A stretch of DNA of 64,000 nucleotides from Pseudomonadota bacterium (GTDB lineage Bacteria > Pseudomonadota > Gammaproteobacteria > Burkholderiales > Burkholderiaceae_C): the NCBI GenBank assembly GCA_031119395.1, contig JAVHYA010000005.1:32032-96031 (forward strand), written 5' to 3'. Under the pieces are notes generated by a model. That model was not told the DNA's origin. It saw only the letters and a program-made list of their open reading frames with translations, and did no database searches. This document shows, piece after piece, positions 8,670 to 63,263 of this stretch (its first letter is position 1; every line of letters begins with the position of its first letter). A program made the translations under genes and the position numbers.

Positions 8670-8683
8670 ATTGGTTAAACCAT
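8670..8683. promoter_or_regulatory. GntR/FadR-type operator, site 1 (ATTGGTTAAACCAT)
   Basis: A perfect GGT-N3-ACC dyad with ATT/CAT flanks, 31 bases upstream of the oxygenase ATG. In the leftward direction TACAAT (8687-8682) overlaps it, so bound regulator would cover the -10. Spacer TAA belongs to the western class. Confidence 0.75.
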
Positions 8684-8755
8684 TGTAAATGACCGAGCGC
8701 GTTGGCGAAAGCCTGCGGAGAGGGTTGCACTCGGGGTATTACCGAAGAATGATTG

Positions 8756-8769
8756 ATTGGTCAGTCCAT
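8756..8769. promoter_or_regulatory. Imperfect GntR/FadR-type operator, site 2 (ATTGGTCAGTCCAT)
   Basis: Same dyad with one mismatch in the right half (TCC for ACC), 39 bases upstream of the receptor gene at 8808. It is the weakest of the thirteen and does not fit the spacer pattern of its neighbours. Confidence 0.45.
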
Positions 8770-8807
8770 TATCCTTTCGGTCGATTCGTTTTCCCAGGAG
8801 TTCCGTC

Positions 8808-9806
8808 ATGCCCATGCAAAGCAGCGGCCGCCGCACCGCCCTCGTCCGGATTGCCGCGGGTGCAGGCGCTCTGGCCCTGTCTTCCGGCCGCCTGCTTGCG
8901 CAGGGGACCACCTGGCCCGATAGGCCCATCACCTTGATCACGCCCTTCGGCGGCGCCGTCGACGTGCTGGCGCGACTGATCGCCGCCGACCTGGGCAGCC
9001 GCCTGGGGCAGACGGTGATCGTGGAGCAGAAGATCGGAGGCTCGGGAACCATCGGCATGGCGGCGGTGGCCCGCGCGCGTCCAGACGGCTACACGATCGG
9101 CATGGGCACGACCACGTCGCTGACTTCCGCGCCGCACCTCATCAAGAACCCGGGCTACGACGTCGAGAAATCCTTCACCTATCTCGGTCTGATCCAGACC
9201 TCGCGCCAGGTCCTGACGGTGTCGCCCAAGCTGGGCGTGGACACGTTGCAGGACTTCATCGCTCTCGCCAAGTCCAGGCCCGGCACGCTCAACTTCGGAT
9301 CGAGCGGCGTCGGCAACAGCATTCACCTGGCGGTGGAGCAGTTCAACGCGGCCGTCGGCATCAAGGCGGTGCACGTGCCGTTCAAGACGGGCAACGAGAC
9401 CGACACCGCCATGATTGCCGGTCAAGTGCAGTACACGATCGCGTCGCTCGCCACGTCGCTGCCGCTCATCCAGGCCGGGCGCATCAAGGCGCTGGCGGTG
9501 ACGGGAGAGGGCCGTGATCCGGCGCTGCCGAACGTGCCCAACCTCGGCGAATCCGGCCTGCCGGTGCGGATTCCGGACCAGCTGTTCGGCATGGTCGGGC
9601 CGGCCAGCATGCCGGCGCCGGTGACGTCGAAACTCCTGAAGGCCGTCGCGGACATGCAGGCCGACCCCGCGTTCCAGGAGTCCGTGCGCCGCACCGGCGG
9701 CGTGCCTTCGCTGGTGCATGGAGAGGCCTTCCGCAAGCTGGCGCTGGGCGACAGCCAGACATGGGGCGATCTCATCAAGCGACTGGGCATCACGCTCAGC
9801 AGTTGA
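8808..9806 (+). CDS. Bug/TctC-type periplasmic receptor 1
   Basis: A 332-residue extracytoplasmic receptor of the tripartite tricarboxylate (Bug) family, binding a small carboxylate or similar ligand between two lobes. Residues 1-31 form an export signal with adjacent arginines (GRRTALVRIAAGA) before a hydrophobic core and LLAQ, possibly a Tat signal. Mature-protein hallmarks are WPDRPITLITPFGG-D and ARPDGYT. The loop after Pro-Phe-Gly-Gly has AVD. The ATG at 8808 has CCAGGAG 7 bases upstream. No TctA/TctB membrane partner is near. It leads a three-gene unit with the enone reductase and the TIM-barrel protein. Confidence 0.9.
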   Translation: MPMQSSGRRTALVRIAAGAGALALSSGRLLAQGTTWPDRPITLITPFGGAVDVLARLIAADLGSRLGQTVIVEQKIGGSGTIGMAAVARARPDGYTIGMGTTTSLTSAPHLIKNPGYDVEKSFTYLGLIQTSRQVLTVSPKLGVDTLQDFIALAKSRPGTLNFGSSGVGNSIHLAVEQFNAAVGIKAVHVPFKTGNETDTAMIAGQVQYTIASLATSLPLIQAGRIKALAVTGEGRDPALPNVPNLGESGLPVRIPDQLFGMVGPASMPAPVTSKLLKAVADMQADPAFQESVRRTGGVPSLVHGEAFRKLALGDSQTWGDLIKRLGITLSS

Positions 9807-9816
9807 GGCTGTCCGC

Positions 9817-11705: not shown

Positions 11706-11710
11706 GGGCC

Positions 11711-14127: not shown

Positions 14128-14141
14128 ATTGGTTCAACCAT
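14128..14141. promoter_or_regulatory. GntR/FadR-type operator, site 3 (ATTGGTTCAACCAT)
   Basis: A perfect dyad in the 76-base gap between the leftward thiolase-like gene and the rightward SDR gene. TATCAT at 14124-14129 is a possible rightward -10 overlapping it. Spacer TCA is the western class. Confidence 0.8.
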
Positions 14142-14167
14142 CGAACAAGCCAACAAGGAGCATCGAA

Positions 14168-17345: not shown

Positions 17346-18317
17346 CTAGAGCTTCACGCGCCCTGCGTCGACCAGCTTCTGCGTGAGCGCAAGCTGGTCT
17401 TTCATGAAGCGCTGCGTCTTGTCGGCGCCCCATGGTGCCGGGTCGAAGCCCAGCTCCAGCAGTTTCGCGCGCACGTCCGGCATCACCAGGATGCGGCCCA
17501 TCTCCGCGTTGAGCCTGTCGACGATCGCCTTCGGCGTCTTCGCGGGCACGAAGGCAGCGCCCCAGCCGGGCATGTCGACTGCCGGATAGCCGAGCTCAGC
17601 GAAGGTCGGCACGTCGGGATACGCGGGAAAGCGCGTGCCACTGGCGACGGCGAGCGGCCTGATCTTGCCGGGGTAGCGATTCACGCCGCCGACCGACGTC
17701 ACCGCCGCATCGATCTGGCCGCCAATCAGGTCCTGCAGCGCGGGGGTCTCACCCTTGTAGGGCACGTGGACGGTGTCGATGCCGGCCGCCATGTTGAACA
17801 GTTCGCCGACGAAGTGGCCGCCCGAACCCGGGCCATAGGAGCCGTAGGAGAGCTTTCCCGGCCGCGTCTTGGCGAGGGCCACGTACTGCTGGAGCGTGGA
17901 GACCGGCAGGCTGTCGCGGACCCCGAGCGCGATCGGCGTGAGCGCCAGCATGCCCACCGGCTGGAGGTCTTCGAGGCGGTAGCCCGGCTTCGGCATCAGG
18001 ACGGTGTTGCTCAGGAGCGCGCTGTAGCCGATGAGTACCGTGTATCCGTCGGGCGGCGCCTGCGACACCGCAGCCGCGGCGATGGCGCCACTGGCGCCGG
18101 CCCTGGATTCGACGATGCAAGGCTGGCTCCAGGCATCGGTCAGCTTCTGGCCAATGATCCGCATCATGGTGTCGTGCCCCCCGCCCGCCGGCGTGGGGAT
18201 CACGAACTTGATGACCTGCGAAGGGAAGGCCTGCGGCTGCGCCTGTGCGAGCGGCAGGACGCCCGAACCGAGCGAGCCGAGCGCAGCTGCAAGCGTCTGG
18301 CGTCGGGTGAAGTTCAT
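17346..18317 (-). CDS. Bug/TctC-type periplasmic receptor 2
   Basis: A 323-residue receptor. The signal MNFTRRQTLAAALGSLGSG...AQA has a twin arginine. FPSQVIKFVIPTPAGGGHD and APPDGYT mark the ligand-loop strands of the family, and GPGSGGHFVGELF and HVPYKGE the hinge region. Convergent with the phosphatase gene (3 bases between stops). It stands alone as a one-gene unit whose promoter region carries operator 18372-18385. AAGGAGA precedes the ATG by 6 bases. Confidence 0.9.
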   Translation of the reverse strand: MNFTRRQTLAAALGSLGSGVLPLAQAQPQAFPSQVIKFVIPTPAGGGHDTMMRIIGQKLTDAWSQPCIVESRAGASGAIAAAAVSQAPPDGYTVLIGYSALLSNTVLMPKPGYRLEDLQPVGMLALTPIALGVRDSLPVSTLQQYVALAKTRPGKLSYGSYGPGSGGHFVGELFNMAAGIDTVHVPYKGETPALQDLIGGQIDAAVTSVGGVNRYPGKIRPLAVASGTRFPAYPDVPTFAELGYPAVDMPGWGAAFVPAKTPKAIVDRLNAEMGRILVMPDVRAKLLELGFDPAPWGADKTQRFMKDQLALTQKLVDAGRVKL

Positions 18318-18371: not shown

Positions 18372-18385
18372 ATTGGTTCAACCAT
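18372..18385. promoter_or_regulatory. GntR/FadR-type operator, site 4 (ATTGGTTCAACCAT)
   Basis: Identical 14 bases to site 3, located between divergent receptor 2 and the kinase gene, 15 bases before the GTG at 18401. Confidence 0.8.
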
Positions 18386-18400
18386 AGATTAAACGACAAA

Positions 18401-20504: not shown

Positions 20505-20518
20505 AATGGTAGAACCAT
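20505..20518. promoter_or_regulatory. GntR/FadR-type operator, site 5 (AATGGTAGAACCAT)
   Basis: A dyad within TTAATGGTAGAACCATTAA (20503-20521), directly abutting the AAGGAG ribosome site of the ABC receptor gene. TTTAAT at 20502-20507 could be a -10. Same 14 bases as site 7. Confidence 0.8.
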
Positions 20519-20534
20519 TAAGGAGACATGCATC

Positions 20535-21669: not shown

Positions 21670-22536
21670 ATGACCGACGCGCTGCTTCAGCAACTGCTCA
21701 ACGGGCTCTCCATCGGCTTCGGCTACGCGTTGATCGCGCTGGGGCTCACGCTGGCCTTCGGCGTGCTGCACATCATCAACTTCGGCCACGGCGAAGTGGT
21801 GATGCTGGGCGCCCTCACGGTGGTCCTGGCGAACAAGCTGCTGGGACTGCCCTATCTCGCCGCGCTGCCGCTCGCCATGCTGGTGGGTGCCCTCGTCGGC
21901 TGGATCTTCGATGCGCTCGCCGTGTCGCCGCTGCTGCGTCGCGCGGAGGGCCGCACCGACATCCTCCTCACCACCTTCGCCGTGGGCGTGCTGTTCAACC
22001 AGGCCGTCCTGTCGGTGTGGGGGCCGGCGCCGGCGCGCGTCGACGGGTTGCAGGGCCGTATCGAACTGGCCGGCGTGGGGCTCAGTGCGCAGCGCCTGTT
22101 CGTGATCGTGGCCAGCATCGTCGCGCTGGTGCTGCTGGACCTGCTCGCGCGCCGCACCCGCTTCGGCGTGGAGATGCGCGCGCTCGCGCAGAGCGAGCAT
22201 GCCGCGCGCGTGGTGGGGATCGACGTCAAGTCGGTCGGCACGCGCGCCTTCCTGCTGGCAGCCGTGGTCGGCGGCCTCGGCGGCGCGCTGCTGGCGCCGA
22301 TCACCGCCTACTCGCCGATGCTCGGGCAGGCGGTGCTGGTCAAGGCCTTCGTGATCGTGGTGCTCGGCGGGCTCGGCAGCGCCGGCGGCGCGGTGCTGTG
22401 CGCGCTGGCCGTGGGCGTGCTCGAGGCCATGCTGGGCCTGGTGATGGAAGAGGGCCTCGCCGCGGCGACGGTGTATTCGCTGATGCTGGTGGTGCTGCTG
22501 GTGCGCCCACACGGCCTCGCAGGGGCGGCGCGATGA
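21670..22536 (+). CDS. LivH-type ABC permease
   Basis: A 288-residue inner-membrane permease with about eight hydrophobic segments, starting LLQQLLNGLSIGFGYALIALGLTLAFGVLHIINFGHGE, the standard LivH opening including the NFGHGE loop. It pairs with the LivM domain of the next gene to form the channel. The stop overlaps the next start (ATGA). Confidence 0.93.
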   Translation: MTDALLQQLLNGLSIGFGYALIALGLTLAFGVLHIINFGHGEVVMLGALTVVLANKLLGLPYLAALPLAMLVGALVGWIFDALAVSPLLRRAEGRTDILLTTFAVGVLFNQAVLSVWGPAPARVDGLQGRIELAGVGLSAQRLFVIVASIVALVLLDLLARRTRFGVEMRALAQSEHAARVVGIDVKSVGTRAFLLAAVVGGLGGALLAPITAYSPMLGQAVLVKAFVIVVLGGLGSAGGAVLCALAVGVLEAMLGLVMEEGLAAATVYSLMLVVLLVRPHGLAGAAR

Positions 22537-24329
22537 TCCGCAGCTTGCGCGACATGTTGATCGGCATCGCCGCCGCGGCGCTGCTGGCGGGCGTGATCCG
22601 CTCGCCCTATCTGCTGGACGTCGCGGCCTACGCAGGCGTGCTCGCGATCTTCGTGCTCGGCGTGTCGGTCACCTTCGGCCAACTGGGCTATGTGAGCTTC
22701 GGGCACGCGGCCTTCCTGGGCCTGGGTGCGTATACCGTCGGCCTCCTGGTCTCGCGACTCGGGTGGAACTACTGGCTGGCGGTGCCGCTGGGCGTGCTGC
22801 CCGGCCTGCTGCTCGGCGGGCTGGTGGGCATCGTGTCGGCGCGCCTGAGCGGTGCCTACTTCGCCATCGCGACGCTGGTGGTGGCCGAGATCCTCGTGCT
22901 GCTGGTGGTCAACTGGGTGGACCTCACGCGCGGCCCCATGGGGCTGATGGTGACGGCCTCGCCACTGCCGCTCGTGCAGGGCCTGGGGTGGACTGCGCAG
23001 CAGGGCTATCTGTTCGCGGTGGTTGCGGCGCTCGCCGTCGCGCTCGTCCTGCTGCGCAATCTGCGCGGGAGCGCCACCGGGCGCGGCTGGATCGCGATCC
23101 GCGAGGCGCCGGCGCTTGCCGAGTCGCTCGGCATCGCAACCGCTCGCGCGCGGGTGCTGAACGTCGCGCTGTCGGGCGGTCTTGCCGCGCTGGCCGGTGC
23201 GCTGCTCATTCCCAAGGTGTTCGTGCTCTCGCCCTCGCTGCTTGGCGTGAGCTACTCGGCCACCGGCATCCTGGGCGTGATCCTCGGTGGCAAGGCCACG
23301 CTGGTGGGCCCTGTGCTGGGTGGGGCGCTGTTCGCGATCGTTCCCGAAGGGCTGCGCTTTCTGGGCGATCTCAACTTCGCGGCCTTCGCGCTCGTCCTGC
23401 TGCTCGCGGTGCGCTTGCTGCCGGGTGGGCTGGTGGGTTGGATGGCCGCGCGGCCGCCCTTCATGCGATGGCGCACCGCGCGCGCGGCCCGGGTAGCGGA
23501 TGAGGCGCCGCCTGCGCCTCTTGCGGCCCGGCCGCATCGCGAAGGCACGGTGCTCGAGGTCGCGGGCGTGAGTCGTCATTTCAAGGGACTCAGGGCCGTG
23601 CAGGATGTGTCGTTCGACGTGCGCGCGGGCGAAATCCTGGGCCTCATCGGGCCCAACGGTGCCGGCAAGACCACCCTGCTGAGCATGCTGTCGGGCTTCC
23701 TCCCCGTCAGCACCGGCGCGATCCGCGTGCGTGGGCAGGACATCGCGGGCCGGCCCGCCCATCGCGTCGCGCGGCTGGGCGTGGTGCGCAGCTTCCAGCA
23801 CACCGCGCTTTGTGGGGGGCAGACGGTGGCCGCCAACATGGCGATCGCCAGCCACATGTACCGACCCGGTGGATTCTGGGGCGCGCTGCTGCGCGCGCCA
23901 CGCTGGCGCAAGCATGAGCGGGAGCGAACGGCTCATGCACTGGCCTGCTTGGCCGAAGTGGGCTTGCTGGCGCGTCGCGACGACCTGGCGGGCAGCCTGC
24001 CCTACGGCGAACAGAAGTTGCTGGGTGTGGCAATGGCGCTGGCGACACAGCCCGAACTGTTGCTGCTCGACGAGCCGGCTGCCGGCCTCAACCAGGTCGA
24101 GGCGACGCGCCTGGCCCGGGTGCTGCGCGGCCTGCGCGACAAGGGCATGACGCTGATCGTGGTCGACCACAACCTGAAGATGCTGATGTCGTTCGTCGAC
24201 CGGGTGGTGGTGCTGCACCATGGCGTGAAGATCGCCGACGGCGCGCCCGGCGCGGTGACGCGCATGCCGGAGGTGGTGTCGGCCTACCTGGGCAGCACAC
24301 CCGCACCGCTCGAGGAGCTGGCCGCATGA
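22533..24329 (+). CDS. LivM-LivG fusion: ABC permease plus ATPase in one chain
   Basis: A 598-residue protein. Residues 1 to about 310 are a LivM permease (VTFGQLGYVSFGHAAFLGLGAY loop near 47-68, many hydrophobic segments). After a linker (about 311-335) comes a complete LivG ATPase: Walker A GPNGAGKTT near 373-381, the signature LPYGEQK near 489-495 and Walker B LLLLDEPAAGL near 508-518, then a switch His. Usually these are two genes. No stop or frame break lies at the joint, so the fusion appears real. Both neighbours overlap it by 4 bases. Confidence 0.92.
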   Translation: MIRSLRDMLIGIAAAALLAGVIRSPYLLDVAAYAGVLAIFVLGVSVTFGQLGYVSFGHAAFLGLGAYTVGLLVSRLGWNYWLAVPLGVLPGLLLGGLVGIVSARLSGAYFAIATLVVAEILVLLVVNWVDLTRGPMGLMVTASPLPLVQGLGWTAQQGYLFAVVAALAVALVLLRNLRGSATGRGWIAIREAPALAESLGIATARARVLNVALSGGLAALAGALLIPKVFVLSPSLLGVSYSATGILGVILGGKATLVGPVLGGALFAIVPEGLRFLGDLNFAAFALVLLLAVRLLPGGLVGWMAARPPFMRWRTARAARVADEAPPAPLAARPHREGTVLEVAGVSRHFKGLRAVQDVSFDVRAGEILGLIGPNGAGKTTLLSMLSGFLPVSTGAIRVRGQDIAGRPAHRVARLGVVRSFQHTALCGGQTVAANMAIASHMYRPGGFWGALLRAPRWRKHERERTAHALACLAEVGLLARRDDLAGSLPYGEQKLLGVAMALATQPELLLLDEPAAGLNQVEATRLARVLRGLRDKGMTLIVVDHNLKMLMSFVDRVVVLHHGVKIADGAPGAVTRMPEVVSAYLGSTPAPLEELAA

Positions 24330-42075: not shown

Positions 42076-42103
42076 TGTGATGTAAATGGTAGAACCATAC
42101 AAT
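42075..42103 (+). promoter_or_regulatory. Rightward promoter of the EthD-flavoprotein operon
   Basis: TTGTGA (42075-42080), 17 bases, TACAAT (42098-42103). Operator site 7 (42085-42098) fills the spacer. Start of transcription would be near 42110, 20 bases before the ATG. Confidence 0.5.
42085..42098. promoter_or_regulatory. GntR/FadR-type operator, site 7 (AATGGTAGAACCAT)
   Basis: Same 14 bases as site 5. It lies between divergent MDR 2 and the EthD gene, inside the rightward promoter. Reverse spacer TCT, western class. Confidence 0.8.
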
Positions 42104-42129
42104 GGTGAGGCCACATCGGAGCGCCGGTC

Positions 42130-47598: not shown

Positions 47599-47628
47599 TT
47601 GACGCATTCGGAATTGCCTAAGTATAAT
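47599..47628 (+). promoter_or_regulatory. Strong sigma-70 promoter of CoA-transferase 2
   Basis: TTGACG (47599-47604), 18 bases, TATAAT (47623-47628). Best promoter in the window. Operator 9 begins in the last bases of the -10, so repressor binding would block it. The start would be near 47635, leaving a 27-base leader. Confidence 0.8.
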
Positions 47629-47639
47629 GGTAAGACCAA
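47626..47639. promoter_or_regulatory. GntR/FadR-type operator, site 9 (AATGGTAAGACCAA)
   Basis: Dyad with core GGTAAGACC (reverse GGTCTTACC, as in site 8), overlapping the TATAAT of the promoter at 47599, between the SnoaL gene and CoA-transferase 2. Confidence 0.8.
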
Positions 47640-47661
47640 TGAACTTCTAGGGCCGCCCTTC

Positions 47662-49548: not shown

Positions 49549-50529
49549 TCATTCCGGCTGGATGCCCTTGGCTTGCAGCAACGCCCCGAAGCGCGCCCCT
49601 TCCTTGTCGACCAGCGCGCGAAACTGCTGCGGCGAGCTGAACTTCGGCTCGTTCCCCGAGCGTTGCAGGGCTTCGCGGACCACGGGGTCCTCCAGCGCCT
49701 TGCCCATCGTCTCGTTGAGCTTCATGACCACCGCGTGCGGCGTTCCGGGTGCCGCCACGAGGCCGAAGAACACCTCCGTCGTCATTCCGGGGTAGCCCTG
49801 CTCGGCCATGGTCGGCACTTCGGGCAGTTCCTTCTCGCGCTGGGGCCCGGTCACCGCGAGGGCCTTGAGCTTGCCGGAGCGCACGAGGGGAATGTTCGAC
49901 GACAGCGCGTCGAACAGGAACTGGATGTTGCCGCCCAGGATGGCACTCGCCGATTCCGCGCCGCCCTTGTAGGGCACATGCAGCGCCTCGAAGCCGGCCT
50001 CGCTCTTGAGCAGCTCTGCCAGCAGGTGCAGGCTGCCGTTGACGCCGTTGGAGCCGAAGCTCAGTTGCCCGGGATGCGCCTTGCCGTAGGCCACCAGTTC
50101 CTTGACGCTGTTGACGCCGAGCGTCGGCGACGCGACCAGGATGAAGCCCGAGGTGGTGGCCTGTCCGACGGTGATCAGCGTCTTCACGTCGTAGCCCGGG
50201 TTCTTGTAGAGATAGGGCGAGATCGCCATCACGCTGTTGCCGACCCATACCAGCGTGTAGCCGTCGGCCGGCGCGCGCACCGCTTGCGCCACCGAGACCG
50301 TGCCGGAGGCGCCTGGCTTGTTGTCGATCACCACGGGTTGGCCGAGCAGCTTGCTCATCTTGTCGCCCACGAGGCGCGCGGTGATGTCCGTCGTGCCGCC
50401 CGCGCCGGCGCCCACCAGGATCTTGATGGGGCGCGATGGGAACGGCTCCTGCGCCGCCCAGAGCGGCTGGGCGGCGATGGCGGCGCCGGCGGCAAGCAGT
50501 GTGCGGCGGCGCAAGCGGCATTCGGTCAT
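49549..50529 (-). CDS. Bug/TctC-type periplasmic receptor 6
   Basis: A 326-residue receptor, signal MTECRLRRRTLLAAGAAIAAQPLWAAQ (arginine-rich). FPSRPIKILVGAGAGGTTD shows Val-Gly-Ala in place of the usual Ile-Val-Pro, and APADGYT follows. Stand-alone leftward gene facing the nitroreductase operon across operator 10. Confidence 0.9.
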   Translation of the reverse strand: MTECRLRRRTLLAAGAAIAAQPLWAAQEPFPSRPIKILVGAGAGGTTDITARLVGDKMSKLLGQPVVIDNKPGASGTVSVAQAVRAPADGYTLVWVGNSVMAISPYLYKNPGYDVKTLITVGQATTSGFILVASPTLGVNSVKELVAYGKAHPGQLSFGSNGVNGSLHLLAELLKSEAGFEALHVPYKGGAESASAILGGNIQFLFDALSSNIPLVRSGKLKALAVTGPQREKELPEVPTMAEQGYPGMTTEVFFGLVAAPGTPHAVVMKLNETMGKALEDPVVREALQRSGNEPKFSSPQQFRALVDKEGARFGALLQAKGIQPE

Positions 50530-50591: not shown

Positions 50592-50620
50592 TTGACTCGG
50601 CATCGAAATGTCATTATATT
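50592..50620 (+). promoter_or_regulatory. Promoter of the nitroreductase-thiolase operon
   Basis: TTGACT (50592-50597), 17 bases, TATATT (50615-50620). Operator 10 begins inside the -10, the same layout as the promoter at 47599. The leader before the ATG at 50638 would be about 11 bases. Confidence 0.7.
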
Positions 50621-50631
50621 GGTCCTACCAT
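50618..50631. promoter_or_regulatory. GntR/FadR-type operator, site 10 (ATTGGTCCTACCAT)
   Basis: A perfect dyad overlapping the -10 of the nitroreductase operon, opposite receptor 6. GGTC half, eastern class. Confidence 0.8.
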
Positions 50632-50637
50632 TTAAAT

Positions 50638-52968: not shown

Positions 52969-53943
52969 ATGATGTTCCGACGCCAATGGCTGGCGATGTC
53001 GGCGCTCGCGCTTTCCGCGCTTGCGCTGGGCAGTGCGCAGGCCGACACCTTTCCGAGCCGGCCGATCAAGATCATCGTGCCCTTCGCCGCGGGCGGTACC
53101 GGTGACGTGCTGATCCGCACGCTGCAGGAGCCGCTGCAGCGGCGCCTCGGACAGCCGATCATCGTGGAGAACCGCCTGGGCGCGAGCGGCTCGATGGGCA
53201 CGGTGTTCGTCAAGAATTCGCCGGCCGATGGCTACACGCTGCTGCAGGTGGGCAACTCGACCGTGACCACGCCGATGCTGCAGAAGACGGCCAACTACGA
53301 CTCGCAGAAGGACCTTGCGCCGGTGGGCCTGATCGCCACCACGCCGATGGTGTTCCTGCTCAATCCGGTGGTGCCGGCCACCAGCATCAAGCAGCTGATC
53401 GACTACGCGAAGGCCAATCCCGGCAAGCTGGAGTTCTCGTCGGCGGGGCGCGGATCACTGGCGCATCTGGCGACCGAATCCTTCAACCAGGCGGCTGGCC
53501 TGAAGATGGTCTTCGTGCCCTACCAGGGCGCGTCGCAGGCGGTCAACGCGGTCCTTGCCGGCGACGTCAAGGTGGCGCTGACCACGCCCTCCGACGCGAT
53601 CAACGCCTTCGTCAGTGCGGGCCGCGTGCGCATGCTCGCGGTGTCCAGCGAAAAGCGCAGCCCACTGCTGCCCGATGTGCCTGCCATCGCCGAGACGCTT
53701 CCCAACTTTGCGGTCAACGCCTTCTTCGGCCTGTCGGCACCGGCGGGCACGCCTCCCGCGATCGTCGCGAAGCTCAACGACGCACTGAACAAGTCCATCG
53801 CCGAGCCGGCAGTGCAGGAGAGGCTCAAGGTGCTGGGCATGTTCCCGCACCCCAACGACGCCAAGAGCTTCGGCGACATGATGACGCGCGACCATGCGCT
53901 GTGGACCGGTGTGATCGCCAGGGCCGGTATCGAGGCGGAATGA
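52969..53943 (+). CDS. Bug/TctC-type periplasmic receptor 7
   Basis: A 324-residue receptor, signal MMFRRQWLAMSALALSALALGSAQA. FPSRPIKIIVPFAAGGTGD and SPADGYT are present. Start ATG at 52969 with CCAGGAGA 6 bases upstream; a GTG at 52921 would add 16 residues without reason. Embedded in an operon, 51 bases after DUF35, and overlapping the SnoaL gene. Three periplasmic or catabolic genes follow in tight order. Confidence 0.9.
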   Translation: MMFRRQWLAMSALALSALALGSAQADTFPSRPIKIIVPFAAGGTGDVLIRTLQEPLQRRLGQPIIVENRLGASGSMGTVFVKNSPADGYTLLQVGNSTVTTPMLQKTANYDSQKDLAPVGLIATTPMVFLLNPVVPATSIKQLIDYAKANPGKLEFSSAGRGSLAHLATESFNQAAGLKMVFVPYQGASQAVNAVLAGDVKVALTTPSDAINAFVSAGRVRMLAVSSEKRSPLLPDVPAIAETLPNFAVNAFFGLSAPAGTPPAIVAKLNDALNKSIAEPAVQERLKVLGMFPHPNDAKSFGDMMTRDHALWTGVIARAGIEAE

Positions 53944-54536
53944 CGATGAGCAGCGCCCTCGACGACTACTCGCCCGAGCGCATCGCCGATCGCATGCAGA
54001 TCCATGACTGCATGTACCGCTGGTGCCGCGCGGTGGACCGGCTCGACTTCAGTGGCATTCGCGATGTCTTTCATGACGATGCGATCGACATGCACGGCGC
54101 CTACGACGGCCCGGTGGATGGCTTGATCGACTGGATCCGAAGGCGCCATGCCGACATACCCTTCTCGATGCACGCGGTGAGCAACCTGCTGATCGAGTTC
54201 GCCGGCCCCGACCTCGCGTTGGTGGAGACCTACGTTCGCACCACGCAGCGCTACCCGGCCGAGGCGCGCGCGGCGCTCGACCAGCTTGCCGGCGGCAAGG
54301 CGGGCGCCGACGGCGGCGGCATGGACCTCATGACCTGCTCGCGCTATGTCGACCGCTTCGAGCGGCGCGAGGAGCGTCGCTGGAAGATCGCGCGACGGAC
54401 GCTGGTCGCCGACTGGAAGCAGTTCGTGCCGGTGCCCGCCGACCTGCCGGATCCGCCGGCTTCGCAGCAGACCGGACGCCGCAACCAGGACGACTTGATC
54501 TTCCAGGAACGCCGGGCGTTGGGGATTCGAGCATGA
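53940..54536 (+). CDS. SnoaL/NTF2-like protein 2
   Basis: A 198-residue cone-fold protein: RIADRMQIHDCMYRWCRAVDRLDFSGIRDVFHDDAIDMHG near 13-52 shows the Tyr/His/Asp pocket of SnoaL-type proteins, followed by SMHAVSNLLIEFAG and a C-terminal tail of about 40 polar residues. Similar in design to the gene at 47058, so the region has two copies. It may be an isomerase or dehydratase. The ATG overlaps the receptor 7 stop and the stop overlaps receptor 8. Confidence 0.78.
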   Translation: MTMSSALDDYSPERIADRMQIHDCMYRWCRAVDRLDFSGIRDVFHDDAIDMHGAYDGPVDGLIDWIRRRHADIPFSMHAVSNLLIEFAGPDLALVETYVRTTQRYPAEARAALDQLAGGKAGADGGGMDLMTCSRYVDRFERREERRWKIARRTLVADWKQFVPVPADLPDPPASQQTGRRNQDDLIFQERRALGIRA

Positions 54537-55504
54537 ACCGAAAGCAGTTCCTTCGCGGCACGCTCGGCGCGCTGGCTGCAGGCGCCGCATGGCCCGCGCT
54601 GGCCGCCTATCCGGACAAGCCGGTCATGTTGGTCGTTCCCTATCCGCCGGGAGGCATGGGCAGTACCTTCGGCAACATCGTCAGCGAGGCGCTCACGCCC
54701 AAGCTGGGCCAGAACGTCGTGGTCGACTACAAGGCCGGCGCCAACGGCGCGCTCGGGGCGGCCTACGTGGCCAAGGCGCAGCCGGATGGCTACACGCTGT
54801 TGATGGCGGTCAACAGCACCATGGCCATCAACCCGCACCTGTACTCGAAGCTGCCTTTCGATCCGGTCAAGGACTTCACACCGGTGTCGATGATCTTCAC
54901 CAACGCGAACGTGCTGGTGGTCAATGCGTCGAGCCCGGTGCGCTCGGTGAAGGACCTGATCGCCTACGCCAAGGCCCATCCTGGCAGGGTGAACTACGGA
55001 TCGGCGGGCAATGGGTCCACGCCGCACCTGTCCGGCGAGATGTTCCGCCAACTCACGGGCGCGCCCGTGGTGCATGTGCCGTACAAGGGCAGTGGCCCGG
55101 CCATCGTGGATCTGCTCGGCGGTCAGATCGACTTCCTGTTCGTCGACACCTCGGTGCTGCCGCAGGTGCGCAGCGGCAGGCTGCGGGCGCTGGCCGTCAC
55201 CGGGCGCACCCACCTCGGCGCCGCCCCCGAGTTGCGAACGATGGAGGAGGAAGGCGTGAAAGGCTTCGTGGTCGACACCTGGTACAGCATCTGCGCGCCT
55301 GCCGGCACGCCGCCCGATGCGGTGAAGCGTCTCAACACGGAAATCGCGAAGATGCTGGCTGACCCCGGGGTACGCCAGCGCATGCGCGACGTGGGCGTGG
55401 ACCCGGCCGAAGACACGAGCGCGGCGTACTTGCACAAGACCATCCAGGCCGACAGCGCGCGCTGGAAGACTTTCATCAAGTCGACCGACATCCACCTCGA
55501 CTGA
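54533..55504 (+). CDS. Bug/TctC-type periplasmic receptor 8
   Basis: A 323-residue receptor, signal MNRKQFLRGTLGALAAGAAWPALA (Lys/Arg pair, possibly Tat). YPDKPVMLVVPYPPGGMGS lacks the Asp usually found at the end of the ligand loop (Ser-Thr instead), and QPDGYT follows. The missing Asp suggests a changed ligand. It ends the rightward operon, 15 bases from the stop of the tandem CoA-transferase. Confidence 0.88.
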   Translation: MNRKQFLRGTLGALAAGAAWPALAAYPDKPVMLVVPYPPGGMGSTFGNIVSEALTPKLGQNVVVDYKAGANGALGAAYVAKAQPDGYTLLMAVNSTMAINPHLYSKLPFDPVKDFTPVSMIFTNANVLVVNASSPVRSVKDLIAYAKAHPGRVNYGSAGNGSTPHLSGEMFRQLTGAPVVHVPYKGSGPAIVDLLGGQIDFLFVDTSVLPQVRSGRLRALAVTGRTHLGAAPELRTMEEEGVKGFVVDTWYSICAPAGTPPDAVKRLNTEIAKMLADPGVRQRMRDVGVDPAEDTSAAYLHKTIQADSARWKTFIKSTDIHLD

Positions 55505-55519: not shown

Positions 55520-58069
55520 TCAGATCACGCCGTCGCGTTCAAGGGCACGGATCTGCGCGTTCGCATAGCCGAGCAACTCACCGAGAACGTACTCGTTGTC
55601 CTCACCATAGACGGGCGCGCCGCGCTGCGGCAGCCCGCCGACATGGCTTGGGGTCCGCGACAGCCTCGCAGGCAGCTCGGTGATCGGCCAGGTGCCGATG
55701 CGTGGCGCGGTCACCTCGGTCATCCACTGCTGCTGCGCGAGCTGCGGATCGAACTCGCAGCGGTCCTGCGCGTTCTGGCACACGCCTGCGGCGACGCCCT
55801 GCGATTGCAGCAGGGCCATGCAGGCGTAGCGCTCCTGGGTGCGGGTCCAGGCCTCGACCGCTTCGTCCAGCGTGTCCTGGTGCGCGATCCGCGAAGCGAG
55901 CGTGGCGAAGCGCGGATCGCGCAGGGCGTCGGGCTCGCCGGCGGCCCGCAGCAGCGCTTGCCAGTCCCGCTCGTCGAAGCAGGCGATCGCGATCCAGCGG
56001 TCGTCGCCCGCGCAGCGATACGCCCCGTGCGGCGCCGCAGGCACATAGGGCGATCGGTTGCCGGTGCGCGTGAAGGCCTTTCGCTGCAGTGCCCACTCCA
56101 GGCACTGCACCCCGGTGAGCATCAATCCGGACTCGCATTGCGAGGCATCGATCCACTGGCCCTCGCCGGTGCGCTCGCGGTGCAGCAGGCCGGCGAGGAT
56201 GGCCTGCGCAAAGCCGTAGGCGCCCATCCAGTCGAGGTACGAATAGCCCCAGCCGGCCGGCGGTGCGGGCTCGGGCAGCCCGGACATCTCGCTGATGCCG
56301 GTGAACGCCGCGGCAATCGGCCCGACGGTGCGCATGCGGCCGTAGCGCCCGTGCGCGCCCATGCCCGACTGCTGCACGTAGATGATGTCCTTGCGGATGC
56401 GCTTCATCGCCTCGTAGCCCAGGCCCCAGCGGTCCATGACGCCCGGGGAAAAGCCCTCGGCCACGACGTCGCTGATGGCGACCAGCCTCCGCGCGATCTC
56501 CAGGCCGCGCGGGTCGCGGATGTTGAGAGACAGGCCGCGCTTGCCGGCGTTCTTGTGGTTGTAGTGGCCGCCCATCGCCGGGTCGTCGATCCCCTGCAAG
56601 GGACCGGTGGCGTGCCGGCGCGCCTCGCGGCCGCCTGCCGGGGCCATTGCGCCCAGGCGGCTGTCGAGGTGGTCCTTCCACTCGACCTTGATGCATTCCG
56701 CGCCGAGCGCGGCCACCATGCGCGTGCCGCCGGCGGAGGCGAGGAACCAGGAGAAGTCGAGGATGCGGATGCCTTGCAGCGCAAAGGGCCTGCCGCGCCC
56801 GGAGTGCGCGATCGCCGCGCCGCGCGACTTTTCTTTCGCAGCTGGCGCTTCGCCGGCGTGTGCCGCTGACTGCGGCCGCCGCTCGCCGGGTTGCGGCGCG
56901 GCGCGCTCGGCCACCCATGCGGTGGTCGAGCCGATCCATTTGCTCCGGGGATAGGGCAGCCCGTCGATCCATGCATAGGTGCCACGGGCGGCCCAGTGCG
57001 GGTCGTCGAGGTTCTCGTGCGGCTTGCGCAGCGGTGCCCACATCAGGCCGTGCGCCTGCGCCTCTTCCCACGGCAGGTCGCGAAACCGGAAGCTGCGCAC
57101 GAAGCGTTGCACCACCTCGAAGACGTGGGCCTTGTGTTCGTCGAAGGCCGTGGCCCCGGGCACGTCGCGCCTGTTGGGGTCGCGCAGAGGGTCGGGGCCG
57201 GTGAGGTCGTAGGCCATGCCGCGGGACGCCAGGAACTCGACGACCTTCTTCTCATCCGCCGCGGTCACCATCCAGCCGAGGTTCCAGCGTCCGTCCTTGG
57301 TCTGCGCGAGCGGCGTCGTGATGTTGAGCAATTCTGCGGAGTGCCGGCAGGTCTGGCGCTGCTGCGTCGCCGCGCGCATCACCCACGACATCAGGTCCAT
57401 CTCGGTGGAGACGGACACCGCGGTGTGGATCGCGCAGCTCACGTCCTGACCCTCTCCGGTGCGTTCGCGGTGCATCAGTGCACCGAGGATGCCGACCAGC
57501 GCCTGCTCGCACGCGATATGGCCGGCGTGGAAGGCCTGCGGCGCGATCGGGGGCAAGTCGGGACGTCCTTGGGGATCGGGGTCGTAGCCCGTGTTCATCA
57601 TCACCCCGCCCAGCGCCAGGTGTACCAGGTCGCTGCCGCGAAAGTCCTTCCATGGGCCCTCGTCGCCGAACGGCGTGATGCGCGCGGTGACCAGGCGGGG
57701 AAAGCGATTGGCGAGTTCCGACAGTGCAAGACCGGTGAAGGATTCCACCTGCGCCAGGCTGCCGCACAGGAACACGTCGGCCTCTTCCAGAAGCGCCAGC
57801 AGCGACGCACGCGCGGGCGCGCTCGGCAGGTCCAGCAGCACCGAGTCCTTGTCGCGGTTGTAAGCCTGGAAATAGAGCGAACGCCCGTCCTGCGAAAGCG
57901 GCGGCATGCGCCGCGATGCAGCACCCGCGAGCGGCTCGACCTTGGTGACGCGGGCGCCGAGGCCTGCGAGCAGCAGGCCGCAGTACTCGGCCTGCTCATC
58001 GCACATCTCGACCACGCGCAAACCGTGCAGGAGACCGACGTCGCCAGAATGATTGAATGGTTGGACCAT
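55520..58069 (-). CDS. Tandem-fused CaiB/BaiF CoA-transferase (two domains in one chain)
   Basis: An 849-residue protein with two CaiB-fold domains, about 14-400 and 440-849, joined by an Ala/Glu/Lys-rich linker (AAHAGEAPAAKEKSRGAA). The first domain keeps the candidate catalytic Asp147 (FRGSDLVHL). At the equivalent place the second domain reads RTVGPIAAAFTG, with no Asp, so probably one half is catalytic and the other structural or CoA-binding. Normal family III enzymes are interlaced homodimers; this fusion would mimic that. The ATG at 58069 lies within operator 11, seven bases after a TATAAT. Confidence 0.88.
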   Translation of the reverse strand: MVQPFNHSGDVGLLHGLRVVEMCDEQAEYCGLLLAGLGARVTKVEPLAGAASRRMPPLSQDGRSLYFQAYNRDKDSVLLDLPSAPARASLLALLEEADVFLCGSLAQVESFTGLALSELANRFPRLVTARITPFGDEGPWKDFRGSDLVHLALGGVMMNTGYDPDPQGRPDLPPIAPQAFHAGHIACEQALVGILGALMHRERTGEGQDVSCAIHTAVSVSTEMDLMSWVMRAATQQRQTCRHSAELLNITTPLAQTKDGRWNLGWMVTAADEKKVVEFLASRGMAYDLTGPDPLRDPNRRDVPGATAFDEHKAHVFEVVQRFVRSFRFRDLPWEEAQAHGLMWAPLRKPHENLDDPHWAARGTYAWIDGLPYPRSKWIGSTTAWVAERAAPQPGERRPQSAAHAGEAPAAKEKSRGAAIAHSGRGRPFALQGIRILDFSWFLASAGGTRMVAALGAECIKVEWKDHLDSRLGAMAPAGGREARRHATGPLQGIDDPAMGGHYNHKNAGKRGLSLNIRDPRGLEIARRLVAISDVVAEGFSPGVMDRWGLGYEAMKRIRKDIIYVQQSGMGAHGRYGRMRTVGPIAAAFTGISEMSGLPEPAPPAGWGYSYLDWMGAYGFAQAILAGLLHRERTGEGQWIDASQCESGLMLTGVQCLEWALQRKAFTRTGNRSPYVPAAPHGAYRCAGDDRWIAIACFDERDWQALLRAAGEPDALRDPRFATLASRIAHQDTLDEAVEAWTRTQERYACMALLQSQGVAAGVCQNAQDRCEFDPQLAQQQWMTEVTAPRIGTWPITELPARLSRTPSHVGGLPQRGAPVYGEDNEYVLGELLGYANAQIRALERDGVI
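58056..58069. promoter_or_regulatory. GntR/FadR-type operator, site 11 (AATGGTTGGACCAT)
   Basis: Dyad between the tandem CoA-transferase and receptor 9. The reverse core is GGTCCAACC, identical to site 13. It includes the start codon of the leftward gene. Confidence 0.75.
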
Positions 58070-58076
58070 TTGTTCT

Positions 58077-58128: not shown

Positions 58129-59103
58129 ATGAAGACAGCCCGCTTGCTCGCCGCCGCCGCGATGCTCGTGGCCGCCGCGACCTCGTTCGCGCAGGGCCCC
58201 GACACTTTTCCCTCCAAGCCCGTGACGATCATCGTGCCGTTCTCAGCGGGCGGCGCCACGGACCTGTCCGCACGCATGATCGCGACGCTCCTGTCCAAGC
58301 AGCTCGGGCAGCCGTTCGTGGTGGAGAACCGCGCCGGCGCCGGCGGCATGATCGGCATGGGCACCGTGGCGCGTGCCCAGCCGGACGGCTACACCTTGGG
58401 CTGGGGCGGCAACAGCCCGATGAGCGTCACGCCTCACGTCACGAGGAACCCACCCTACGACCCACGCAAGGCCTTCGCACCGGTGAGCCTGGCGGCGATC
58501 TCGTCGTGGACGCTGACATCGAGGGCCGACCTGCCGGCCAAGGACTTCGGCGAACTGGTCAAGCTCGCCAAGGCCTCGCCGGGCAAGATCAGCATCGCCT
58601 CTTCCGGCAACGGCAGCGCGCCGCACCTGCTGGCCGAGATGCTCAAGCAGTCCGCGGGGATCGATCTTCTCCATGTGCCCTACAAGGGCGAGATCGAAGG
58701 CGTCAATGCGCAGCTCGGCGGGCAGGTCGACCTGATGTTCACTTCCACCTCGGCGGCCACGCCGCAGGTGAAGGCGGGCAAGCTCAAGGGCTACGCAGTC
58801 ACCACGCCCAGGCGCGAGCCGGCGCTGCCGCAGTTCCCGACGATGGCGGAGGTCGGGCAACCGGACCTCACGATCGAGATCTTCTTCGGCCTCGTCGCGC
58901 CGGCCGGCACGCCCAAGCCGATCCTGGAGAAGCTCGCGGCAGCGATGAAGGTCGCCGTGGCCGATGCGAACTATCGCGAGTCCATGGAGAAGGCCGGCGT
59001 CACCGCGACCAGCAGCACGCCCGAGGAATTCGCGGCCCTGCTGGCCCGCCACAACGAGCGCTGGCTCGCCGTCATCAAGCGCAACAACATCACGCCCGAA
59101 TGA
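58129..59103 (+). CDS. Bug/TctC-type periplasmic receptor 9
   Basis: A 324-residue receptor, signal MKTARLLAAAAMLVAAATSFAQG. FPSKPVTIIVPFSAGGATD and QPDGYT mark the fold. ATG at 58129 with CCAGGAG 8 bases upstream; a TTG at 58090 would lengthen the chain without reason. Its stop overlaps the ligase start, which ties an uptake receptor directly to an acid-activating enzyme and suggests that both handle the same acid. Confidence 0.9.
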   Translation: MKTARLLAAAAMLVAAATSFAQGPDTFPSKPVTIIVPFSAGGATDLSARMIATLLSKQLGQPFVVENRAGAGGMIGMGTVARAQPDGYTLGWGGNSPMSVTPHVTRNPPYDPRKAFAPVSLAAISSWTLTSRADLPAKDFGELVKLAKASPGKISIASSGNGSAPHLLAEMLKQSAGIDLLHVPYKGEIEGVNAQLGGQVDLMFTSTSAATPQVKAGKLKGYAVTTPRREPALPQFPTMAEVGQPDLTIEIFFGLVAPAGTPKPILEKLAAAMKVAVADANYRESMEKAGVTATSSTPEEFAALLARHNERWLAVIKRNNITPE

Positions 59104-60773: not shown

Positions 60774-61512
60774 CGCCCGGCGCCTCGGCATTCACCATGT
60801 AGCCGCGATGCAGCTTGGTGAGTGCCGAGCTCATCTCGGCCACAGCCTTCTCCGCGTCGCGCGCATGCAGGTGCTTGAGCAGCCGCTTGCGCGAAGGAGA
60901 CGTGTAGTCCTGCTGGTCGGTCGGGCCGATCGCCTTCACGAACTGGCGGGTGATCTCCATGATCCCCTCGGTCGTCGCGATGAGGACCGGGTTGTGCGTG
61001 GTCCGTGCCAGCATCACGTGGAAGGCCTGGTGGTGCCGGGTGCGCTCCTCGAAGTCGCCAGCCTGCTTGGCCTTCGCGGCGGCTGCGACATTGGCCTCCA
61101 GCGCATCGATCTCCTCGTCGGTGATGTGCTCGCAGGCCACGCGGATCACCGCGGCGCTGACCGCGATGCGCGCCTCGGTCAGGTGCTGCGGCGTGATCGC
61201 GCCGAGGAAGTAGAGATCGCGCATGCCCGCGACCACGGCGTTCGAGCTGCCCGGCAGCACGAAGGCGCCACCGGTCGCGCCCAGCCGCAGTTCGATCAGT
61301 CCGCTGAGCTCCAGTGCGCGCAGGGCTTCGCGCATGGTGTTGCGGCTGACGCCGAAGCGCTTGGCCAGTTCGCGCTCCGGAGGAAGCTTGTCGCCGGGCC
61401 GCAGTTTCCCTTCCGAGATCAGGCGCCGCAACTGGTTGGCCACTTCCTGGAAGATGCGCTGCGGATTGATGGGGACGACGTCGAAGCCGTCGTGGTCGCG
61501 TGGACTGAGCAT
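60694..61512 (-). CDS. FadR-subfamily GntR regulator 2
   Basis: A 272-residue regulator: winged HTH at 20-85 and FCD domain at 98-235. PGDKLPPERELAKRFGVSRNTMREALRALE places Arg48, Arg57 and Arg61 at the FadR operator-contact positions. The FCD keeps the His of HQAFHVMLARTTHNP but lacks the usual middle and last histidines by eye. A Pro/Ala/Arg-rich tail of about 35 residues lies antisense to the end of the ligase gene; the overlap of 80 bases is unusual. Operator 12 lies 46 bases upstream, so it is probably autoregulated. Candidate regulator of sites 8-13. Confidence 0.88.
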   Translation of the reverse strand: MLSPRDHDGFDVVPINPQRIFQEVANQLRRLISEGKLRPGDKLPPERELAKRFGVSRNTMREALRALELSGLIELRLGATGGAFVLPGSSNAVVAGMRDLYFLGAITPQHLTEARIAVSAAVIRVACEHITDEEIDALEANVAAAAKAKQAGDFEERTRHHQAFHVMLARTTHNPVLIATTEGIMEITRQFVKAIGPTDQQDYTSPSRKRLLKHLHARDAEKAVAEMSSALTKLHRGYMVNAEAPGATAAAPPRPPRGPRPAKARPPAPGAA

Positions 61513-61550
61513 GGGCGGATCGTAGCGGCACCGCGCATGTCTGCGTCACA

Positions 61551-61580
61551 TTGACCCAATGGTCCGACCACTAATATGAT
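61551..61580 (+). promoter_or_regulatory. Promoter of SDR 2, leaderless geometry
   Basis: TTGACC (61551-61556), 18 bases, TATGAT (61575-61580), then 6 bases to the ATG at 61587. Operator 12 sits in the spacer. No ribosome site is present before the ATG. Confidence 0.7.
61558..61571. promoter_or_regulatory. GntR/FadR-type operator, site 12 (AATGGTCCGACCAC)
   Basis: Dyad with core GGTCCGACC between gntR 2 and SDR 2, inside the SDR 2 promoter. GGTC half in both orientations, eastern class. Confidence 0.75.
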
Positions 61581-61586
61581 GGTTCG

Positions 61587-62411
61587 ATGAGCAAGGCCAC
61601 GACATCGACACTGCAGGGCCAGGTGGCCATCGTGACCGGCGCGGCGCGCGGCCTAGGCCGCGCATATGCGCTGCGGCTCGCGCAACTCGGCGCCGATGTG
61701 GTGGTCGCCGATATCGACCTCGCATCGGCACGCGAGTTCGGGGAGTCGCTGACCGCGCCTGGCGTGCCCGAGGAGATCCGCGCCCTGGGCCGCCGCAGTC
61801 TGGGCGTCGAGGGCGACCTGCGTCGGCGCGCTGGCGCGCGCGCACTCGTGCAAAGGACGCTGGCGGAGCTTGGCCGCATCGACATCCTGGTCAACAACGC
61901 GGGCGGGGCGTTCACCCCCGTCGAGCGGAGCCTGGCGTCGCAGATGCCGGACGAGGACACCGACGCGATGCTGGACGTGAACTACCGCAGTGCGCTCTTC
62001 TGCAGCCAGGAAGTGCTGCCCACGATGCGCGCGCAGGGTGGGGGCGTGATCGTGAACATCGCCACCCTGGCCGCGCTCGACCCGTCGCGCGCCGCTGGTC
62101 GGCTCGCGCCGTATGCCATCGCGAAGGGGGCGGTCACCACGCTGACACGGTACCTCGCACAGGAGTTGGGGCCGCAGGGCATTCGCGTCAATTGCATCGC
62201 GCCGGGGTCGATGATGACCGAGCGCATCCGCAAGCAGGCGGCGGAACGCGGCATGCAGAACGAGAAGGAACTCAAGCGCATTCCCCTGCGCCGCTTCGGC
62301 GAAGTCGAGGACTGTGCGAACGTGCTCGAATTCCTGGTCACGCCGTTGTCGGGCTATGTGACGGGGCAATGCATCTCGGTGTGCGGCGGGCAGGTGCTGA
62401 CGCCGTCGTGA
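61587..62411 (+). CDS. Short-chain dehydrogenase/reductase (SDR 2)
   Basis: A 274-residue SDR: TGAARGLG at 17-24, VVADID near 38-43 (NAD type), NNAG near 105-108, catalytic YAIAK near 172-176. The serine position reads NIATLAAL (Thr), a known variant that may reduce or alter activity. Single-gene unit divergent from gntR 2. Likely oxidises a hydroxyacyl-CoA or ring alcohol. Confidence 0.88.
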   Translation: MSKATTSTLQGQVAIVTGAARGLGRAYALRLAQLGADVVVADIDLASAREFGESLTAPGVPEEIRALGRRSLGVEGDLRRRAGARALVQRTLAELGRIDILVNNAGGAFTPVERSLASQMPDEDTDAMLDVNYRSALFCSQEVLPTMRAQGGGVIVNIATLAALDPSRAAGRLAPYAIAKGAVTTLTRYLAQELGPQGIRVNCIAPGSMMTERIRKQAAERGMQNEKELKRIPLRRFGEVEDCANVLEFLVTPLSGYVTGQCISVCGGQVLTPS

Positions 62412-62429
62412 GCTCGCTCGTGAGCGGCG

Positions 62430-63185
62430 TCAGCCCATGAACACGCCGCCGTTCACATCGACGCAGGTGCCGGTGACGTAGGACGCCTGTTCGCTCGCGA
62501 GGAAGAGCACGGCCGCCGCGACCTCGTCGGTGTCCCCCAGGCGGCGCATCGGAATCGCGCGTGTGGCGGCGGCGATCACTTCCGGACTGGACAGCGAGGA
62601 CAGTGCAGTTTCGATCCGCCCCGGTGCGACGCAGTTGACGGTGATGCCGTCCGGCGCATAGGTGCCCGCCAGGTGCCGCGTCAGGCCGATCAGCGCCGCC
62701 TTGGAGGCCGCATAGTCGGCCCCGGCCGGCGCGACGAAGGTGCGTCCGGCACGCGAGGCGATGTTGACGATGCGCCCGAATCCGCGCTGGCGCATGCCCG
62801 GGATCAGCTCGCGCGAGAGCAGGAAGGGCGCGGTGAGGTTCACGCGCAGCACGCGCTCCCAGTCGGCCATCGTCACCTCGGTGGGCGGAACCGGCTGGCC
62901 GTTGCGCTTGCTCGACATGCCGGCGCAGTTGACCAGGATGTCGCAGCCGCCGAACAGTTCGCCCGCGCGCCTGGCGACGCCCAGCACCTGCGCTTCGTCG
63001 CCAATGTCCGCCACCTGGGCATGCACCGGCGCGTCGGGCGTGGACAGCCTGTCGGCGACAGCACGAACGGATTCGCTCACGTCGGCCAACAGCACGCGGT
63101 GGCCCAGGGCGACGAAGCCGCGAGCGATGGCCAGGCCGATGCCGGCTGCGCCGCCGGTGACGAGCACTGATCTCTGGGTCGGCAT
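62430..63185 (-). CDS. Short-chain dehydrogenase/reductase (SDR 3)
   Basis: A 251-residue SDR: TGGAAGIG at 10-17, LADVSE (Asp, NAD type), NCAG, IASRAG and YAASK as the catalytic Ser/Tyr/Lys set, ending VTGTCVDVNGGVFMG. FabG-like in design. Start ATG at 63185 with AAGGAG 10 bases upstream. Convergent with SDR 2 (18 bases apart) and divergent from thiolase-like 3. Confidence 0.9.
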   Translation of the reverse strand: MPTQRSVLVTGGAAGIGLAIARGFVALGHRVLLADVSESVRAVADRLSTPDAPVHAQVADIGDEAQVLGVARRAGELFGGCDILVNCAGMSSKRNGQPVPPTEVTMADWERVLRVNLTAPFLLSRELIPGMRQRGFGRIVNIASRAGRTFVAPAGADYAASKAALIGLTRHLAGTYAPDGITVNCVAPGRIETALSSLSSPEVIAAATRAIPMRRLGDTDEVAAAVLFLASEQASYVTGTCVDVNGGVFMG

Positions 63186-63229
63186 GGCTTGACGGCTCCT
63201 TCTTTGAACGGGTGGATGGGGAGCGCGCA

Positions 63230-63259
63230 AGTATAGGCACCGTGGTAGCATTGGTCCAA
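63230..63259 (-). promoter_or_regulatory. Leftward promoter of SDR 3
   Basis: Leftward TTGGAC (63259-63254), 18 bases, TATACT (63235-63230). The -35 is formed by the centre of operator 13. Leader of about 40 bases with a good ribosome site. Confidence 0.6.
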
Positions 63260-63263
63260 CCAT
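63250..63263. promoter_or_regulatory. GntR/FadR-type operator, site 13 (ATTGGTCCAACCAT)
   Basis: A perfect dyad between SDR 3 and the thiolase-like 3 gene, overlapping the leftward -35. Core identical to site 11 read in reverse. Confidence 0.8.

Follow-up and report, generated by a model that had tools for sequence, protein, structure and literature searches.

Transcription factors of the FadR subfamily of GntR proteins recognize a consensus made of a TKGT and an ACMA box, in which GT and AC are separated by 3 nt, and in the published picture of the subfamily (Suvorova et al. 2015, PMC4494728) a single palindromic site is shared by the two arms of a divergon. We analyzed a 64,000-nt stretch (the window) of contig JAVHYA010000005.1 from a betaproteobacterium (Pseudomonadota), in which an ATTGGT-N3-ACCAT dyad recurs throughout a region of catabolic genes, hereafter the island. 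The island displayed the features of the subfamily, namely proteins with a GntR helix-turn-helix (HTH) plus an FCD domain, a TKGT-N3-ACMA dyad with A/T-rich flanks, and a single operator placed near the middle of the divergon; it differed from the regulons described there in having four paralogous regulators in about 69 kb, 15-16 operators, alicyclic or steroid-like catabolic genes, and letter differences between sub-clades. The 3-nt-spaced operator architecture is also that of the PdhR, LldR, GlcC and FadR regulons, whereas the genes found here (TctC, coenzyme A (CoA)-transferases, thiolase/ChsH2 and KstD-like flavoproteins) are different from theirs (PMC5343134 and PMC4494728). In Corynebacterium glutamicum, two GntR-type regulators of gluconate and glucose genes (GntR1 and GntR2) are reported to be functionally redundant (PMC2230225), as compared with four paralogues here. 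In the open-licence literature, of which our coverage was partial, no paper was recognized as describing such a regulon or a flavin reductase with an FCD domain. We take it as a new regulon of a type already described, unusual in how many sister regulators share one operator family. Comparison of sequences makes it likely, and we hold this with considerable confidence, that the dyad serves as operator for FCD-type GntR repressors that form one clade of the FadR subfamily and are encoded in the same accessory region.

Direct reading of the window letters verified all 13 places at which the original prediction had listed a dyad (Table 1). Seven were exact copies of ATTGGT-N3-ACCAT on either strand (8670, 14128, 18372, 40278, 47626, 50618, and 63250), five contained one mismatch (8756, 20505, 42085, 58056, and 61558), and the site at 45558 contained two. 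With up to two mismatches allowed on both strands, the window gave 24 matches vs. a shuffle mean of 3.9 (maximum 12); the core TGGT-N3-ACCA (TGGTNNNACCA) appeared 11 times in exact form vs. a shuffle mean of 0.28 (maximum 2), the pattern being more marked than had been stated. Additional two-mismatch matches at 19293, 43203, and 48395 were located inside genes and look like chance. Three further dyads were found to the right of the window (C68:101204, 102102, and 108737, C68 being the contig that holds it); the span proposed for the system, 8670-63263, therefore does contain the dyads but does not end at 63263.

The distribution of the sites with respect to the genes was equally clear. Between 7 and 80 kb, with window coordinates continued rightward, a dyad was present in all 13 divergent gene pairs, as a single site in 12 of the gaps and as two sites in the other one, and in 2 of 49 co-directional pairs, among which no other gap reaches 80 bp; no dyad was left over for the 13 convergent pairs, since all 16 sites were accounted for elsewhere. 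This is what the original prediction had claimed of operon starts; the dyad at 58056 overlaps the predicted start of the gene on its left. Genes were called with our own codon-usage script and corrected by hand after Pfam searches in two places (41083-42783 and 60994-61554). The left edge of the island comes after serS and tRNA-Ser and its right side extends 12.7 kb beyond the window, where the next genes encode MFS, MarR, and outer-membrane efflux proteins. The region is considered accessory because the same-genus genomes G071 and G378 gave no match to GntR-D at E 1e-25. At the left edge, the tRNA-Ser(CGA) gene lies at window positions 5849-5939, beside serS; an integration repeat of its 3' end was sought and rejected, as its last 15-30 bases matched only the tRNA itself in C68:12032-125302.

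In the 5.14-Mb genome, 32 exact TGGTNNNACCA cores were counted, 13 of them in C68:40703-108749. One of the other 19 was inside a called gene of the same contig (C68:29650) and 18 were elsewhere in the genome, 11 inside called genes, 2 upstream of genes (C23 and C32), and 5 on contigs C48, C62, C93, C147, and C138. Confinement was more pronounced for the A/T-flanked motif AWTGGTNNNACCAWT: all 8 exact sites and 15 of the 19 with at most one mismatch fell in C68:40701-108751, that is, in 1.3% of the genome (binomial estimate for 15/19, 2.5e-25, the ends of the segment being set by the sites themselves). Two of the four sites outside the island were inside called genes (C37:115871 and C116:16913) and the one in C32 lay between a DAO-type gene and a LysR gene. 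The genome scan thus did not find the dyad equally common in unrelated intergenic DNA, the outcome that the original prediction had named as speaking against it. The remaining outside dyad, C23:19606-19620, precedes TctC and two-domain CoA-transferase genes, and may be a distant target of the regulon because both families recur in the island. The reversed core pattern occurred 107 times genome-wide vs. 32 for TGGTNNNACCA; the dyad may be avoided elsewhere in the genome, or codon use may explain this difference.

Orthologues of GntR-B were present in Variovorax spp. and Xenophilus (62-97% identity), with dyads ahead of the matching genes. In alignments of five promoters (6-9 sequences each including the window, only from loci where the site had already been found), the 8 core columns were invariant in four promoters and 7 of 8 in the fifth, compared with 35-50 of 90 flanking columns. 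When loci L048, L049, and L044 were added, the core was kept in 7 of 8 columns at 40278 (11 rows) and in 8 of 8 at 42085 (7 rows). The 40278 dyad was found in all 10 related loci checked, with one core letter changed in L048, a metagenome contig; locus L050 had three of the five sites and lacked the genes of the other two promoters, with no site there. The same-genus genome G320 carried regulators A to E together with dyads. Around members of the GntR clade (18 clusters from 16 genomes, 817 kb), 98 sites with at most one mismatch were obtained, 94 of them in the 15% of that DNA outside called genes, and the reversed pattern gave no match in the same 817 kb. In this count, 30 bp at each gene end were taken as outside the gene, and the inside site of our genome (42085) corresponds to a misjudged gene and was left out of the later cluster comparison. 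In the same host family, the surroundings of twelve other FCD-GntRs (231 kb in all) contained one site. Groups B, C, C2, C3, and A/D were separated in a tree of 69 proteins, some long branches being flagged; besides the clade rows, of which 38 were chosen for comparison, it held 12 controls, two genomes in duplicate, one E protein, and four further GntRs. As dyads also accompany regulators that are alone in their cluster and belong to different groups, more than one regulator group likely reads the operator. Relatives also presented paired dyads 97 bp apart in single divergent gaps (L105:14268/14365 and L108:2507/2604) and, in one case, three dyads in one divergent gap (L110:19206, 19230, and 19312). 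The number of exact extended sites per genome was discarded as a regulon marker, since other genomes hold 1-4 sites and the count did not discriminate.

The genome contained 25 FCD matches, five of them in the island (A, B, C, D, and E), and A to D each scored above the Pfam cut-offs for both GntR and FCD; no other regulator family was detected at Pfam E 1e-5 among the island genes scanned. The original prediction had counted two GntR regulators, which is correct for the window but not for the region, which holds four plus an FCD fusion. Besides the resemblance of A to D (Table 1), B and C were 43% identical. The best structure match of GntR-B was NanR (4e-14), PdhR (5e-9) and FadR (1.5e-6) being more distant. 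An arginine at an HTH position has been tied to the operator G (PMC4494728), and this residue appeared in 36 of 38 clade rows (as ER), including A to D, the B-type rows L049 and G177 having EK. The mapping of HTH positions is our own. A second HTH arginine, a contact residue in FadR, was present in all 38 rows. In the FCD domain, compared with one reference row, the first histidine position was Tyr or Phe in B, C, and E and the second was Arg in A to E, while A and D keep the first and B keeps the last; these positions we take to be metal ligands, and in this one-row comparison no conserved metal-ligand histidine set was found, most of it being lacking. Since most of those histidines are missing, the pockets of A to E would be suited to larger organic ligands, CoA esters for example. 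The best reading is that four GntR paralogues serve the regulon, A and B in the window and C and D just to its right.

Promoter predictions, made with a sigma-70 matrix of textbook values and 200 flank shuffles per site, suggested how the dyad could act. Scores of the promoters overlapping the 16 dyads summed to 149 vs. a mean of 80 (maximum 101) after shuffling. The overlapping promoter outperformed at least 198 of 200 shuffles at eight sites (45558, 47626, 50618, 58056, 61558, 63250, and two to the right of the window), with the dyad located on one of the two promoter elements (-10 or -35) or in their spacer; for the promoter at 42085, 5 of 200 shuffles matched it. At 47626 and 50618, both TTGAC and the -10 were invariant in the aligned relatives. 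Given that the best predicted promoters place the dyad in these positions, steric repression with release by an effector is the most likely regulatory mode. In every divergent gap, dimers of the regulators would sit on the dyad, cover the -10 element or the -35/-10 spacer and so block both promoters; binding of a pathway intermediate (perhaps a CoA ester) to the FCD domain would then release them. We infer all of these elements: binding, repression rather than activation, the effector, and the pairing of paralogues with sites. The region is very probably a repressor-controlled network of known type, run by several sister repressors.

Several observations weigh against assigning the dyad to the local clade. 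The same two HTH arginines occurred in most of the control FCD-GntRs; ten of the twelve control regulators resemble one subfamily, and the control is narrow for that reason. Some clade clusters presented few or no sites (0-1 with at most one mismatch in G055a, G055b, and G382, and none in G532b). The promoters overlapping 8670, 8756, 14128, 18372, 20505, 40277, and C68:101204 were matched by 18-117 of 200 shuffles, and the paralogue reading each site is ambiguous, because the four have similar HTHs. An exact AWTGGTNNNACCAWT site was present in 39 of 150 family genomes, only three of which had a B-type match at 1e-20, and since the other 36 lacked it, other regulators elsewhere probably use the same operator letters. 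This last result, the 25 FCD matches of the genome, and the listing of PdhR, LldR, and GlcC among subfamily members with 3-nt-spaced sites (PMC4494728) would fit operators of a core-metabolism regulator (PdhR, LldR or GlcC type) whose gene lies elsewhere in the genome, in which case the local GntRs would read other sequences. We regard that explanation as improbable, because the island of this genome concentrates the extended sites, because variation in the operator letters goes along with the local GntR clades, and because G071 lacks an exact extended site as well as matches to B (at 1e-20) and to D (at 1e-25). Genomes with a single D match at 1e-25 (G097, G115, G105, and G192, the tree place of G105 being unsure) still had dyads nearby, and the Pfam content of the island genes revealed no cognate pyruvate, lactate or glycolate genes under the sites. 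The dyads could also be thought of as chance, compositional or promoter-shape features without a dedicated regulator, as their letters are more frequent in AT-rich promoter DNA, where the dyads are located, than within genes; the shuffles, the confinement within the genome, the absence of reversed matches in the 817 kb, and the conservation of the core above its flanks contradict this, and we give it almost no credence. An operator of the local FCD-GntR clade thus remains the preferred reading, and the attribution of the dyad to FadR-subfamily proteins in the original prediction agrees with the published consensus and with a dyad that accompanies the clade in other genomes and changes with it, but the local GntRs are probably not the sole users of these letters.

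This coupled change was apparent in two classes of sites, both chosen after seeing the sites. The form TGGT-N3-TCCA accounted for 7 of 9 sites where the C clade was the only GntR found vs. 5 of 89 in clusters without C (Fisher P = 1.9e-6), and AGC or ACT spacers for 6 of 7 sites of C3 clusters vs. 4 of 118 elsewhere (P = 3.0e-7); both values treat the sites of one cluster as independent, which they are not, so that they are nominal and this too counts against the assignment. The site before GntR-C (C68:101204) has the TCCA form of 8756, and the view of 8756 as merely an imperfect copy was abandoned, given the recurrence of that form with C (Table 1). Strict sub-regulons could be imagined on this basis, B reading TGGT-TCW-ACCA (8.6-42 kb), A and D reading C-containing spacers (45-109 kb), and C reading TGGT-N3-TCCA. 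Spacers with A/T at both ends are those of 8670, 14128, 18372, 20505, 40278, and 42085, all to the left of 42.1 kb, where 8756 is the only window site of another kind; in the family sample, they represented 43 of 78 spacers in B-containing clusters vs. 1 of 16 in B-less ones, and the association of TCCA with C points in the same direction. Nevertheless, order-level clusters without B (G690, G499, G769, and G633) also use TCA or AGA spacers, the spacer of the 42085 promoter in relatives is AGA in some and AAG or CAA in others, and the C-module promoters of this genome have ordinary ACCA dyads. The family sample agreed with a strict link between A/T-ended spacers and GntR-B, but this link failed once the order-level clusters were added, and we find the strict division doubtful. 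The island had been proposed to form one coordinated metabolic system; our comparison bears this out only in part, since several regulators and operators in sub-types suggest linked and perhaps overlapping sub-regulons.

The fifth FCD protein of the island, E, presented no GntR HTH match and has a flavin reductase domain in its place; its FCD domain was 45% identical to that of C over 142 residues. Full-length relatives of E (47-90% identity) were found at 12 loci in 11 of 399 family genomes, the present one among them, the other matched rows of the search covering the reductase half only. Three E rows reported one TGA within the stretch, and gene calls there were full-length single open reading frames (ORFs). 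In this genome (G000) and in G320, G255, and G318, E is accompanied by a C-clade regulator and a dyad just upstream; in G175, G069, G097, and G177, and likewise for the second E of G318, it belongs to a different gene group with acyl-CoA dehydrogenases, and no dyad was present within about 1.5 kb at 7 of the 11 E loci scanned. The nearest precedent is AbHpaC, the reductase of the Acinetobacter 4-HPA hydroxylase, which likewise joins a flavin reductase to a C-terminal domain of a transcription factor family, MarR instead of FCD, and in which the MarR domain relieves self-inhibition upon substrate binding (PMC10816480). We tentatively suggest, as one possibility, that four sister FCD-GntRs with diverged effector domains read overlapping operator variants, so that some 15 promoter regions in 68 kb may integrate several pathway intermediates through a shared operator code, and that a fifth sensor may have moved onto a flavin reductase, where intermediates of that kind could directly gate an enzyme as well as its gene.

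Table 1. Regulators, dyads, and TctC-type receptor genes of the island (window positions, or L002 and C68 coordinates to the right of the window).
Feature	Coordinates	Strand	Remarks
GntR-B, FCD-type GntR regulator, 249 aa	40330-41079	+	dyad in own promoter
GntR-A, FCD-type GntR regulator, 272 aa	60694-61512	-	61% identical to GntR-D
GntR-C	L002:5268-6005		right of window
GntR-D	L002:9926-10639		right of window
E, flavin reductase domain fused to C-terminal FCD	L002:12740-13699 (G000:C68:108771-109730)		
Dyad ATTGGTTAAACCATT	8670-8684		between Rieske oxygenase (-) and TctC (+) genes
Variant dyad ATTGGTCAGTCCATT	8756-8770		TGGT-N3-TCCA form; same form in the promoter of GntR-C and in C-clade-only clusters
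Dyad	14128-14142		between thiolase (-) and SDR (+) genes
Dyad	18372-18386		between TctC (-) and APH-like (+) genes
Dyad	20505-20519		80-bp co-directional gap ahead of LIV-type ABC transporter genes
Dyad TATGGTTCAACCAAT (40278 site)	40277-40291		between acyl-CoA dehydrogenase (-) and GntR-B (+)
Dyad	42085-42099		between zinc dehydrogenase (-) and EthD (+); within spacer of TTGTGA-17-TACAAT
Weak dyad ATCGGTCTTACCAAA	45558-45572		between TctC (-) and 99-aa ORF (+); seven relatives have ATAGGTCTTACCAAA
Dyad	47626-47640		between SnoaL-like (-) and CoA-transferase (+); on -10 of TTGACG-18-TATAAT
Dyad	50618-50632		between TctC (-) and nitroreductase (+); on -10 of TTGACT-17-TATATT
Dyad	58056-58070		between two-domain CoA-transferase (-) and TctC (+); within spacer of TTGAAT-17-TATTAT
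Dyad	61558-61572		between GntR-A (-) and SDR (+); within spacer of TTGACC-18-TATGAT
Dyad	63250-63264		between SDR (-) and thiolase-like (+) genes
Nine TctC-type receptors	8808-9806, 17346-18317, 31147-32130, 34516-35499, 44536-45504, 49549-50529, 52969-53943, 54533-55504, 58129-59103		

Among the Pfam matches in the island were CoA-transferases of family III, thiolases accompanied by ChsH2-type OB proteins, enzymes of the acyl-CoA dehydrogenase, enoyl-CoA hydratase, and AMP ligase families, KstD-like flavoproteins, and a Rieske oxygenase and a reductase, along with an ABC transporter of LIV type. With this content, the island looks like one that degrades an alicyclic or steroid-like acid via CoA esters. 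The flavoprotein at 42798-44549 passed only the generic FAD-oxidoreductase subfamily cut-off and missed the ketosteroid-dehydrogenase ones; its best PDB match was 7p18, a 3-oxosteroid 1-dehydrogenase. No TctA or TctB membrane partner of the TctC-type receptors was detected among the window genes scanned. In the LIV-type gene group, ABC permease and ATPase domains are joined in one 598-aa protein (22533-24329).

These results define an operator and name candidate regulators for an extensive uncharacterized catabolic region common to Variovorax and its relatives. Sister repressor clades with operators one or two letters apart constitute a natural series for how FadR-type repressors choose between near-identical sites. 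In addition, the substrate of the pathway becomes findable, since any ligand able to detach GntR-A to D from the dyad would hint at a pathway intermediate.

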